DNA from: an uncultured Alphaproteobacteria bacterium
Lineage (GTDB): Bacteria > Pseudomonadota > Alphaproteobacteria > Methylaequorales > Methylaequoraceae
NCBI GenBank assembly: GCA_902524895.1
Contig: CABZFH010000001.1
Location: 62,001-126,000 of the forward strand
Length of the DNA: 64,000 bases
Direction: 5' to 3'
In this document: in pieces, positions 51,626-55,490 of the stretch
Layout: every line of letters begins with the position of its first letter
Numbering within the stretch: position 1 is the first letter of the stretch
The notes under the pieces: model-generated
Databases searched by the model: none
What the model was told of the DNA's origin: nothing
Seen by the model: the letters and a program-made list of their open reading frames with translations, nothing else
Made by a program: the position numbers and the translations under genes

Positions 51626-52179
51626 TAAAAAAACTCTAAATCTTTTATGTCAAGCTCAGCATTATAATCTTGACCAAATGCAACAAATGCAATCGATTTA
51701 ATTTTTGTTGATAAAAATTCTGAAGGTTGAAGTTTGTGTGATTTTTTAAAATCAGAAAGCAAGAACTTTATTTCTGTCCATTCTTTTTGAGTGTAAAAAG
51801 GATAGAAATAGTATTGCCATGGGAGAAATGTAAAAGGAGTTCTTACATGAACAAAATACTTTTCTCCATTTCCTCTAACTTTAAATTTTATTCCTTTGAG
51901 TGATATATCACTAATTTCAATTTTTGATCGAAATTGAATAAATCCTCCATTATTTTCTGTGCTTACCTTTCCTTCAAGTCTGTAAAACATTTCCCCTTCA
52001 TCATTGTTGATTTTTAATTTACCGAATGACTTTCCTCCCATTACATTGTCACTCACAAATTCCCATTTATGATTGAAAACATTTTTTTCAGGAGCTGAGG
52101 GACTAAATATTTGCATAGAAAAAAGGTTTGAATAGGCAAATAAATATATACCAAGTAATAGAAATTTAGTTACACTCAT
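51625..52179 (-). CDS. CIA30 family protein with signal peptide
   Basis: 184 aa. N-terminal hydrophobic segment (first ~22 residues), then a galactose-binding-like beta domain: WEFVSDNVMGGKSFGKLKI, NGGFIQFRSKI, GIKFKVRGNGEKYFVHVRTP, and the closing IAFVAFGQDYNAELDIKDLEF. This is the complex I intermediate-associated protein 30 domain; in bacteria the role is unknown and no complex I genes are near. Coupled to DUF2805. Confidence 0.82.
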   Translation of the reverse strand: MSVTKFLLLGIYLFAYSNLFSMQIFSPSAPEKNVFNHKWEFVSDNVMGGKSFGKLKINNDEGEMFYRLEGKVSTENNGGFIQFRSKIEISDISLKGIKFKVRGNGEKYFVHVRTPFTFLPWQYYFYPFYTQKEWTEIKFLLSDFKKSHKLQPSEFLSTKIKSIAFVAFGQDYNAELDIKDLEFF

Positions 52180-52345
52180 TTTCCAAATATGAATATTTTA
52201 AAAAAAATTATCAAGGGTAATATTATTCTCTAAATATTAACTTTTATAGTTCTCATCCCTAAAATCAGTTAGCATCGTTAAAAGTGAATTATATATTTTA
52301 ATTTTAGATTAAGATATACGACTTATAATTTTAATTGTATATTTA

Positions 52346-52549
52346 TCAAAGAAGTTTTAGATTTGCAGCTGAAATTTTTCCCTTATTTGTTGCGGTCTCA
52401 AAGCTAATCTTTTGTCCTTCATTCAAACTTTGAATTCCAGCTCTTTCTAGTGCGCTAATATGAACAAATACATCCTTACCTCCATCTTCAGGTTGTATAA
52501 ATCCATAGCCTTTGTTTGGGTTAAACCATTTTACTGTTCCATTTGCCAT
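52346..52549 (-). CDS. Cold shock protein
   Basis: 67 aa single-stranded nucleic-acid binding OB fold. RNP1 KGYGFI (13-18) and RNP2 VFVHI (26-30) are intact. A good AAGGA site lies about 8 bases before the ATG. The leader has a 6-bp hairpin (GTTTAG at 52569-52574, CTAAAC at 52581-52586), possibly part of a cold-responsive 5' UTR. The remaining 52587-52766 shows nothing I can support. Confidence 0.95.
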
Positions 52550-52766
52550 TTAATATCCTTTTATGTTTGTTTAGAATAGACTAAACGTTGTTTAATATTA
52601 GAGTCGTTCAAAATGAAGCCACATAGCCAATTAAAATACTCTTATATTAAACTTCAAAACCAAATAATTAATTTCAGGCATTAAGTTTAAGAGTAAATAG
52701 AAAACTCTTACAAAATCATTATACTATTAAATGTAATAAAGCAAAATCATTTTTAATTTAGAATAT

Positions 52767-53444
52767 ATGAACAAAAACTTACTTACCAATATAATTTCTT
52801 TTTCAATAATGATATTGGGAGCTTTTTCACCCTTATATCAAAATATCATATTTTCAATTGGTCTCTTCTCGCTTTCAGGTGGGCTAACTAATTGGTTAGC
52901 AATTTATATGCTTTTTGAGAGAATACCCTTGATTTATGGTTCAGGAATAATTCCCAACAAATTTGAATTAATTAAAGAAGAGATAAAGAAATTAATCTTT
53001 GATGAATTTTTTACTGAAAAAAATCTAAAAACAATCGTTATGTCAGAAGTTCAATTTGATCCCGACCATTTAATAGAATCTGTAGGAAAAAATAATCTAT
53101 TTTCAAAGTTTGTTGAAGCCATTGAAGAATCATCTTTAGGAAATATGCTTACATTAGTTGGGGGAAAGGCTGCACTGGAACCGCTAAAAGATCCATTGAT
53201 TGAGAAGATGAGAATCATACTTGAAGATTTTTCCAAAATTTCAGAAAATGGAAATTCTGATTTAGTCAAATCTATAAAGTCACAAGTAGAAAATATAATT
53301 GAAATTCGATTAAATGAGTTGTCTTCTGATGATATAACAAAGATTATAAAAGAAATGATTGAAAGTCATCTTGGATGGCTTGTAATATGGGGTGCGGTGG
53401 TTGGTGGATTTATTGGTTTTATTGTTGGTTATTTGAATTTATAA
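52767..53444 (+). CDS. DUF445 family membrane protein
   Basis: 225 aa. Two N-terminal hydrophobic segments with SGGLTNWLAIYMLFERIPLIYGSGIIPNKFELIKEEI, the hallmark of DUF445, a helical soluble middle part (about 75-195) and a C-terminal transmembrane helix (WGAVVGGFIGFIVGYL). Function unknown. Followed 13 bases later by the start of the split lipoprotein hydrolase. Confidence 0.83.
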   Translation: MNKNLLTNIISFSIMILGAFSPLYQNIIFSIGLFSLSGGLTNWLAIYMLFERIPLIYGSGIIPNKFELIKEEIKKLIFDEFFTEKNLKTIVMSEVQFDPDHLIESVGKNNLFSKFVEAIEESSLGNMLTLVGGKAALEPLKDPLIEKMRIILEDFSKISENGNSDLVKSIKSQVENIIEIRLNELSSDDITKIIKEMIESHLGWLVIWGAVVGGFIGFIVGYLNL

Positions 53445-53516
53445 GTGATTTTTAATTATGAGTGAACAATTTAAAAAAAAAAGAACCAAAATTTTTTTTT
53501 TATCCTAATTATTTTT

Positions 53517-54476
53517 ATGTCTGGATGCGTCAATAAAAACCGAAAATATAGTGATTATTATTTATTAAATAAAAATTACAATTATAATTTTAAAACTTGG
53601 AATTCAAAAGAGGAATCAAAATTTTTAGTTCTAGCAGTTCATGGCTTTAACGACTATGCAAACTCATTTTTAATACCTGCCCAATTTTTGTCCAATTTTC
53701 AGATTAAAACAATTTCTTTTGATCTAAGAGGATTTGGTTCTAATCAAGATGCAAAAAGCTGGTTTCCGTTAGAAGTACATATTTTTGATATAAAAAAAAT
53801 AATACTCAACTTAAAGAAAAAAAATCCAGAAAAAAAAATTTTTCTTTTGGGAGAAAGTATGGGCGGAGCTATTTTACTAAGTCTAGTATCACAAGAAAAA
53901 TATCTTCCAATTGAAGGCGTGATATTGGTTGCTCCTGCAATTTGGAATTTTTCAGAGTTAAATCCCATAAAAAGTTTCATACTTAACAGTTTTTCAAAAT
54001 TATTCCCGAAATTTAATATTAGCGGAAAAGGTTTAGTCAAGGTTAAAGCAAGTGATAACATAGAAATGTTAAGACAGTTATCAAAAGACAAATATTTCAT
54101 TCATGAACCAAATCTTGAAAGTATTTACGGTATTACCGAACTTATGGATTTAGCATTCAAAAGTACAAAAGTTTATCTAAAAAAACCGAGTTATGATACA
54201 TTGATTGTTTTGCCTCTTTTAGACGAGATTATTCCAAGAAAACCCATTAAAAATTTACTTAGTGAATATGAAATTAGAAGAAATATAGAAAAAAAGGTTG
54301 ATTTGGCGGTATATGATAAAAACTATCATATGATTTTAAGGGACCTTGATGGAAATAGAGTTACAAGAGAGATTAAAGAATGGATTTTTGATAGAAAAAG
54401 GATTAAGGATCTTTATTCATTTAAAATGAGCTTGGAAAGATTAGAAAGTTCACAATATATTCATCAATTAGATTAA
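53517..54476 (+). CDS. Alpha/beta hydrolase (monoacylglycerol lipase-like), lipoprotein signal split by frameshift
   Basis: 319 aa from ATG 53517. Nucleophile Ser in GESMGGA (near 113), HG oxyanion motif VHGFND (near 43), and late Asp/His in PLLDEIIPR and NYHM. As it stands the protein begins MSGC, the end of a lipobox with no signal before it. An ATG at 53458 encodes MSEQFKKKRTKIFF and then stops after a 10-T run (53492-53501). One added T, or a −1 slip, joins it to FILIIFMSGC, making a complete lipoprotein signal. So the true gene probably begins at 53458. The lipid or ester substrate is unknown. Confidence 0.82.
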   Translation: MSGCVNKNRKYSDYYLLNKNYNYNFKTWNSKEESKFLVLAVHGFNDYANSFLIPAQFLSNFQIKTISFDLRGFGSNQDAKSWFPLEVHIFDIKKIILNLKKKNPEKKIFLLGESMGGAILLSLVSQEKYLPIEGVILVAPAIWNFSELNPIKSFILNSFSKLFPKFNISGKGLVKVKASDNIEMLRQLSKDKYFIHEPNLESIYGITELMDLAFKSTKVYLKKPSYDTLIVLPLLDEIIPRKPIKNLLSEYEIRRNIEKKVDLAVYDKNYHMILRDLDGNRVTREIKEWIFDRKRIKDLYSFKMSLERLESSQYIHQLD

Positions 54477-54547
54477 GTTTTAAAATATTAAATTTATGAT
54501 AATTTATAATTTTCAGTAGCTCCTTAATTAGCCAACAATTCACATCA

Positions 54548-54576
54548 CACCTTACGTAAAAGTCTTACGTAAGGTG
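54548..54576. repeat. Perfect 12-bp inverted repeat built from two TTACGTAA palindromes
   Basis: CACCTTACGTAA (54548-54559) and TTACGTAAGGTG (54565-54576) are exact reverse complements around a 5-base loop. Each arm also contains the self-palindrome TTACGTAA. It lies between two converging genes, but no U-tract follows on either strand, so an intrinsic terminator is not certain. It could be a bidirectional termination hairpin or a dimeric operator. Confidence 0.7.
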
Positions 54577-54592
54577 ACATATTATGTTGTAT

Positions 54593-54910
54593 TTATTTTG
54601 TTGTTTCAGGTTTTTCTTCTGAAGTAGGAGAGGTGATATCTGTTTTTATGCTTATATTTTGAGCAGAAACTTTATCTAAGCTCCCATTTGATTTTGTTAA
54701 ATCAATTTTTTTTGTTTTTGACATATTTTTGCCAGTGAAATGAGAAGTTTTGGTAGCTTTTTTGTCACTTTTTTGAAGTCGAGCTTTTAACTTTCTATTG
54801 TTACTTTTTAATTTTTTAATAACTTTTTTAGGTTTATTAAGTTTAGATTCTAATTTCTTATTAACCTTTTTTAATTTACTAACGTTTTTATTAGGTTTCT
54901 TAAATTGCAT
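54593..54910 (-). CDS. Lys-rich hypothetical protein (uncertain)
   Basis: 105 aa if started at the ATG at 54910. The first half is a Lys/Leu/Asn heptad-like stretch (KKVNKKLESKL, KKVIKKLKSNNRKLKARLQ), suggesting a basic coiled coil; the second half is Ser/Thr/Lys-rich and probably disordered. No ribosome-binding site is visible. The ATG overlaps the ATG of the divergent XRE gene in CATG. It may be a real nucleic-acid-binding protein or a chance frame in A-rich DNA. Confidence 0.35.
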   Translation of the reverse strand: MQFKKPNKNVSKLKKVNKKLESKLNKPKKVIKKLKSNNRKLKARLQKSDKKATKTSHFTGKNMSKTKKIDLTKSNGSLDKVSAQNISIKTDITSPTSEEKPETTK

Positions 54911-55121
54911 GGAAAAAGAACAGTTCAAAAAATGGAGAAAAAAGAATGGGTTTTCTCAAGCAGAGGCTGCTAATATACTTGGCCTAAAAAGAAGAATGAT
55001 TCAGTATTATGAGAAGGGTAAAAAAGGAGAAAAAAATATACAAATACCAAAATATATAAAATTAGCATGTGAAGCGATAGAACTTAGGAAAAAGTTAAAA
55101 AAAAAACTGGATAAGCGTTAA
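54909..55121 (+). CDS. Small XRE-type helix-turn-helix protein
   Basis: 70 aa. [32 protein letters not shown] is a clear lambda-repressor-like HTH (residues 5-36), followed by a basic helical tail. The frame is open far upstream, but that part is a hydrophobic artefact antisense to the Lys-rich ORF, so MEKEQF was taken as the start. The ribosome-binding site is poor. Single-domain regulators like this often bind a nearby palindrome; the TTACGTAA hairpin 330 bases away is a candidate. Confidence 0.75.
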
Positions 55122-55131
55122 TTTTTGTCTA

Positions 55132-55221
55132 TGGCGGAGAGAGAGGGATTCGAACCCTCGAAACAGTTTCCTGTTTACACGCTTTCCAAGCGTGCGCCTT
55201 CAGCCACTCGGCCACCTCTCC
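55132..55221 (-). tRNA. tRNA-Ser (anticodon GGA)
   Basis: 90 bases with encoded CCA. Acceptor GGAGAGG pairs with TCTCTCC (one G-U); anticodon loop TTGGAAA gives GGA; a long variable arm (AAACAGGAAACTGTTT) and TTCGAAT T loop are typical of class II tRNA-Ser. The 269 bases from here to the MarC start are AT-rich, with no other feature I can support. Confidence 0.96.
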
Positions 55222-55490
55222 TAGGCAAAATGTTTATCTAAAAAATATTTTCAAAGCCTCATTGATTTTCACTAAGCGAAAAATAATAAAACATTGTTTA
55301 ATACATTTTTAACTAGCACGCTATTAATAATTAGAAAAAAATTAAAAATAACATTTACTTCTAACACTTCTTAAAAGTTAAAAAAATATTTTTATAAAAA
55401 TCTTAAATTTTCGGTTTTTACTTGATGATCTTTCTAGCTTTATGGTAGTTGATAACAAAATATTCAATTTATTCAGATGTAATAGAGTTT

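Follow-up and report, generated by a model that had tools for sequence, protein, structure and literature searches.

Genes whose frame is broken in a homopolymeric run may still be expressed if the RNA polymerase or the ribosome slips on that run. The reporter study that provides a length requirement for such rescue was, as we understand it, done in E. coli. Restoration of the frame was reported there to require A or T runs longer than seven; the host RNA polymerase, assayed on four runs, favored T runs and made insertions about three times as often as deletions (PMC6260861). E. coli ribosomes have also been reported to slide on iterated AAA codons, with a truncated product from three AAA codons upward that was robust at A11 (PMC4363877). 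In Citrobacter rodentium, an A11 run in tssM1 is described as rescued by transcriptional slippage (PMC4256274), and Blochmannia vafer genes that are frameshifted in such runs, with no acceleration of their evolution, were interpreted as rescued by slippage (PMC3017870). According to Baranov et al., AT-rich genomes that do not avoid such runs are unlikely to slip at 9A or 9T (PMC1088944). In a literature search on slippage in streamlined marine bacteria, the phrase "transcriptional slippage" was absent among the best 10 of 243 matches.

Here, we describe a frame break in a predicted lipoprotein gene of an uncultured alphaproteobacterium. The stretch of DNA analyzed, hereafter the window, comprises 64,000 nucleotides with a GC content of 27–35%, from a 1.43 Mb genome in 27 contigs. 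The organism is presumed to be marine because the corresponding locus of its sister genome matched the record uncultured Alphaproteobacteria AG-337-B08; AG-337 appears in a paper on single-cell genomes of marine waters (PMC6122165).

The hydrolase gene and its divided signal peptide

The gene lies on the forward strand, downstream of a gene for a DUF445 protein (52767–53444, 225 aa); the corresponding position in the sister genome holds an ORF of equal length. Read from ATG 53517, it encodes an alpha/beta hydrolase of 319 aa (53517–54476), which matched the Pfam Hydrolase_4 profile with an E-value of 1.3e-32 and 113.4 bits, against a curated cut-off of 27. None of the eight NCBIfam models listed for the hydrolase reached its cut-off. 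The protein also matched monoglyceride lipases of solved structure (best match 9.7e-10), and its Ser (GESMGG), Asp (LLDEII) and His (NYHMI) residues are in register with monoglyceride lipase 3pe6_A, whose triad positions we take to be the catalytic ones. The gene, present in 29 of 32 genomes of the family, looks like a monoglyceride-lipase-like hydrolase that is lipoprotein-like throughout the family. When the gene was used to search plasmids, no match was obtained, and a contig search returned one locus, that of the sister.

The lipoprotein signal peptide predicted at the 5' end is divided between two frames. A zero-frame ORF of 16 codons plus stop (53458–53508, MSEQFKKKRTKIFFLS*) starts with ATG at 53458–53460, encodes a basic n-region and the first half of a hydrophobic core, and ends with TAA at 53506–53508. 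The remainder of the signal peptide, with its lipobox (FILIIFMSGC), is found not in this frame but in that of the hydrolase, which encodes the second half of the core and the lipobox FMSGC at 53475–53528, with the lipobox Cys codon at 53526–53528. The hydrolase frame is open from 53475, where it reads KKKNQNFFFILIIFMSGC..., has its first ATG at 53517, encodes FFFILIIFMSGC and continues to 54476. An A10 run at 53473–53482 and a T10 run at 53492–53501 are separated by a spacer of nine bases; the coordinates given in the sequence-only reading are correct, including the A10 run nine bases upstream of the T10 run. Single A/T runs of 9–11 are unremarkable within genes of this genome (observed/expected 0.90 to 1.60), but of its 76 A/T runs of at least 10, counted in 264 kb, no other two lie within 20 nt of each other.

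The two ATGs are 59 nt apart, so that a net change of +1 (mod 3) is needed to join the frames, and one additional base in either A10 or T10 would join them. It had been suggested that a single T change restores the frame; this holds for the gain of one T, but not for the loss of one. A comparison with close relatives had also been suggested. In the sister genome G001 (93% protein identity), the only congener compared, the same ATG precedes runs of A9 and T11, and the frame stays open: MSKQFKKKDLKFFFFLIIFMSGC. When judged by eye and with a simple lipobox pattern, the n-region, core and lipobox Cys lie in a single frame in the sister and in two frames in the window. The window's stretch is 2 nt longer than the sister's and carries several substitutions besides, so the addition of one T does not recreate the sister sequence. 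A usable upstream NUG in the hydrolase frame is present in the sister and absent in the window, where a search for an alternative in-frame start found no NUG between 53475 and ATG 53517.

All 31 loci compared (30 from the family, including the window's own and the sister's, and one from outside) have a Cys after a hydrophobic stretch, from which we conclude that lipidation is probably ancestral. The lipobox pattern is fitted by 27 of the 31, the others (L006, L025, L027 and L032) not fitting it exactly. The proposal of a split lipoprotein signal peptide is thus supported both by the nearest genome, which reads from the same start in an unbroken frame into FMSGC, and by a family-wide trait. Among the loci with an ATG-type start, the break was found only in the window's genome (24 loci that overlap another gene have no such start). 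The sole congener compared is in frame and does not share the broken state, and the break appears to be lineage-specific, as far as the compared genomes show.

Accuracy of the assembly and constraint on the gene

One option put forward for the break was a sequencing error, in which case the true genome would be in frame and encode an ordinary lipoprotein. Two adjacent ten-base homopolymers are a poor site for a consensus. Over 71.5 kb of collinear sequence, in which the two genomes are about 95% identical, all 41 coding A/T runs of at least 9 have the same span in the sister, 31 of them being unbroken and equal in length. A further 20 kb at 92.5% identity, in which runs with unaligned flanks were left out, contain 12 counted coding runs of at least 9, all of which keep their span. 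In total, 53 of 53 counted runs are congruent between the two genomes, a count that omits both target runs, since no selected ORF covers them in the window's genome, as well as an A10 run at 55097–55106. Because the counted runs keep their span, a generally bad consensus is unlikely, and the homopolymers of this assembly look sound. Of the long runs that were not counted, three differ from the sister, two of them being the target runs.

A survey with 377 proteins from two relatives, not all of them distinct orthologs, gave matches of at least 80 bits for 307 proteins in 264 kb of the window's genome, and none of these was frame-broken; a break registers in this survey only through an additional 30-bit match in a different frame, so that breaks this near the start escape it. 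The same survey on 351.5 kb of the sister yielded 159 matches and one broken gene, gyrB, split at an A7 run that is A8 in the window's genome (L036, G001:C6 near 66059) and seen by two queries. Since gyrB is normally essential, the split is probably a consensus error in the sister assembly. Runs of 7–8 also differ by one base in the sister in two other places, the beginning of a 318-aa gene and a gene at C1:261507. Errors probably do occur in this kind of assembly. Together with the intact sister, the purifying selection on the enzyme body described below, and the A10 run at 55097–55106, which is also off by one, the gyrB split gives some weight to an error at the target site. The 53 congruent runs and the 307 unbroken proteins disfavor it, however, and the substitutions in the stretch relative to the sister are unexplained by an error. 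We consider an error to be a serious but rather unlikely explanation.

The window and sister hydrolase genes differ with an omega of 0.153 (dN 0.032, dS 0.211), the 52nd lowest value when the 72 genes of the collinear region are ranked (span 0 to 0.596, median 0.111). The enzyme body is under ordinary purifying selection, although omega cannot date a recent break. That the gene is already dead is disfavored by this value. From 53517 to 54476 there is no indel relative to the sister, despite an A9 run contained in this interval (window 53830). The amino acid changes between the two proteins, polarized with distant outgroups, gave a mixed list from which no inference was drawn.

The surroundings of the gene were also compared. 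Of 45 indels between the two genomes in the 71.5 kb, 28 lie within 3.3 kb of the window, at 52123–55379, several of them in a Lys-rich ORF (54593–54928) with an omega of 0.449. The A10 run at 55097–55106, which is A9 in the sister, is at the 3' end of a probable small helix-turn-helix-like gene (a label given by eye) and alters its C-terminus. Elsewhere, a TP_methylase-type gene of 229 aa (G000:C1:175419–176108) is intact in the window's genome and has decayed in the sister via several indels.

Start codons in the related loci

E. coli infC has a non-canonical AUU start, and pcnB is said, in the title of a paper, to have one as well. Such a start has also been reported for Staphylococcus cvfC1 (PMC13009471). 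In 24 loci from 23 genomes and six genera (L004, L005, L007–L027 and L032), the lipoprotein gene starts within the 3' end of an ABC-transporter ATPase gene, which ends ...SDLEDIFIKLLK* or close to that, and overlaps it in the −1 frame (for example, at 1432–1456 in L013). ATG, GTG, TTG and CTG were absent more than 8 codons before the Cys in all 24. In L007, L009, L010 and L012, there is a stop just ahead of TTT AGA GGA YAT ATT, so translation cannot begin further upstream. The ATT is the sole codon one base from AUG before the first Lys codon, although most loci have more AUU or AUA codons after it. If started at this AUU, the signal peptides would read, for example, (M)YKIIKRIVFLKILLLINGC.

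The ATPase Glu codon that forms the GAGG is GAG in 24 of 24 overlap loci, in counts that ignore relatedness among the loci, whereas GAG makes up 20% of the Glu codons in these genes and at most 10 of 21 in other conserved Glu columns. The Ile codon that forms the ATT is ATA in 24 of 24, compared to 42% overall. ATA counts of up to 19 of 23 occur in other Ile columns, however, and the Ile two positions further on has ATA in 22 of 22, which makes the codon evidence mixed. In the best ATPase matches that lack the overlap (the window's own genome, the sister, G002, G004 and G013), the Glu codon is GAA in all five, with GAG as the next codon in the window's own genome, and the Ile is ATA in three. 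Four more distant paralogs without this overlap have GAG (L095, L099 and L100) or GAA (L098), and the GAG in three of the four weakens the codon evidence. We nevertheless consider it likely that the overlap-locus lipoproteins start at a conserved AUU behind the SD-like GAGG. No AUU start of this kind in marine alphaproteobacteria was found in open-access literature titles and abstract openings, including the best 10 of 232 matches. An AUU start in the window, as in the relatives, was also considered and rejected: the window's AUU codons sit within the hydrophobic core.

The probable AUU start of the relatives, which is directly testable, may matter more than the frame break in the window. Gene callers that accept only NUG would truncate or misplace the same lipoprotein in the 24 loci. 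One could also imagine that a low output of the lipoprotein lipase is selected throughout the family by different "bad starts", either the AUU buried in the upstream ABC-ATPase gene (in six genera) or the slippery A/T double run (in this genus, where the gene is elsewhere and has an ATG), which would let only part of the transcripts or ribosomes through in frame, but we regard this as a long shot.

Expression across the break and comparison with known systems

Our preferred reading, held with roughly even confidence, is that the break is a genuine and probably recent mutation specific to this lineage, with leakage that is not programmed. Net indels among the signal peptide codons, which are rich in A and T, would have shifted ATG 53458 out of the frame that encodes the lipobox and the enzyme. 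Most transcripts would lead to a 16-residue dead end. In a minority, slippage of the RNA polymerase or the ribosome on the A10 or the T10 run would produce a net +1 (mod 3) and so the full lipoprotein, and reinitiation at ATG 53517, 8 nt past the stop, might provide an untargeted form. The break is inside A/T runs of at least 9, the frame is otherwise open, the body is under purifying selection, and the change needed is a one-base insertion in A10 or T10. Non-programmed slippage is the likely leak; we infer that the break is present in the cell and that slippage occurs there, as well as how much protein would result. Counting against this reading, the congener is in frame, and genes do not avoid A/T runs of 9–11 (236 genes, 200 synonymous shuffles; observed/expected 0.94 for A10 and 1.05 for T10), so slippage may be weak here. 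A consensus error would look identical.

Weak slippage would fit a real break that lacks any meaningful rescue, leaving only an untargeted enzyme from ATG 53517, which is in frame and close behind the stop, or no enzyme, as in an early pseudogene. The product MSGCVNK... would then have no signal peptide, while a Cys after a hydrophobic stretch is encoded at all 31 loci, and the body is constrained and free of indels relative to the sister in spite of its A9 run. This outcome seems improbable to us.

Phase variation, another of the options put forward, would have the run length switch the lipoprotein on and off between cells to adaptive effect. The frame logic permits on and off states, both runs differ in length between the genomes, unlike the 53 counted coding runs, and variable surface lipoproteins have been described in mycoplasmas. 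Nevertheless, a comparison of two genomes from different species, one for each, is uninformative on switching, and the surroundings are rich in indels, with another changed A10 run at 55097. The window's genome also has mutL and mutS, the latter as a MutS_V protein with an open frame of 900 aa. Their presence speaks against phase variation and led us to reject absent mismatch repair as the cause of unstable runs. With no positive support, we find phase variation very hard to credit.

The last option, programmed slippage, would set the amount of lipoprotein through a −1 shift of the ribosome at U UUU UUA or A AAA AAA. Slippery heptamers are indeed in the zero frame, as the T10 run with its next base holds U UUU UUU (53493–53499) and U UUU UUA (53496–53502), and the stop is the second codon past the T site. 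In E. coli, the U UUU UUA heptamer is reported to be a far weaker site than A_AAA_AAG (PMC5009743). The sister is read in one frame, so the site is not conserved, and no downstream RNA structure was found at 53502–53600 (z +0.69; 147 of 200 shuffled sequences folded equally well or better). These results leave programmed frameshifting with almost no credibility.

Most likely, the break is a frame break of a known kind in a conserved lipoprotein gene, ordinary and possibly leaky, and not a designed switch. If it is real, slippage-tolerated frame breaks, known from insect endosymbionts, would extend to an AT-rich planktonic alphaproteobacterium, and gene callers would drop the signal peptide of such lipoproteins.

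The window's protein shares with the Hydrolase_4/monoglyceride lipase family the profile match and the catalytic residues in register, but is predicted to be a bacterial lipoprotein form. The relatives of the gene share with infC, pcnB and cvfC1 an apparent AUU start, which is known from sequence only and stands behind an SD-like GAGG; they differ in that the gene is another one and the start lies within the upstream gene. As described for tssM1 of C. rodentium, a stop follows shortly past a homopolymer and a base inserted in the mRNA would restore the frame. Both tssM1 products are reported to be needed, and the mRNA heterogeneity was measured, whereas the short product in the window is a 16-mer and the case is known from sequence alone. 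There is also a close likeness in kind to the Blochmannia and Buchnera genes frameshifted in poly(A) or poly(T), for which rescue is reported as thought or shown (PMC3017870): the break is in a long A/T run, the rest of the gene is intact and constrained, and slippage could restore the frame. Unlike these genes, the one described here comes from a bacterium other than an insect endosymbiont, has its break in the signal peptide and contains two runs, and the congener compared is without the break.
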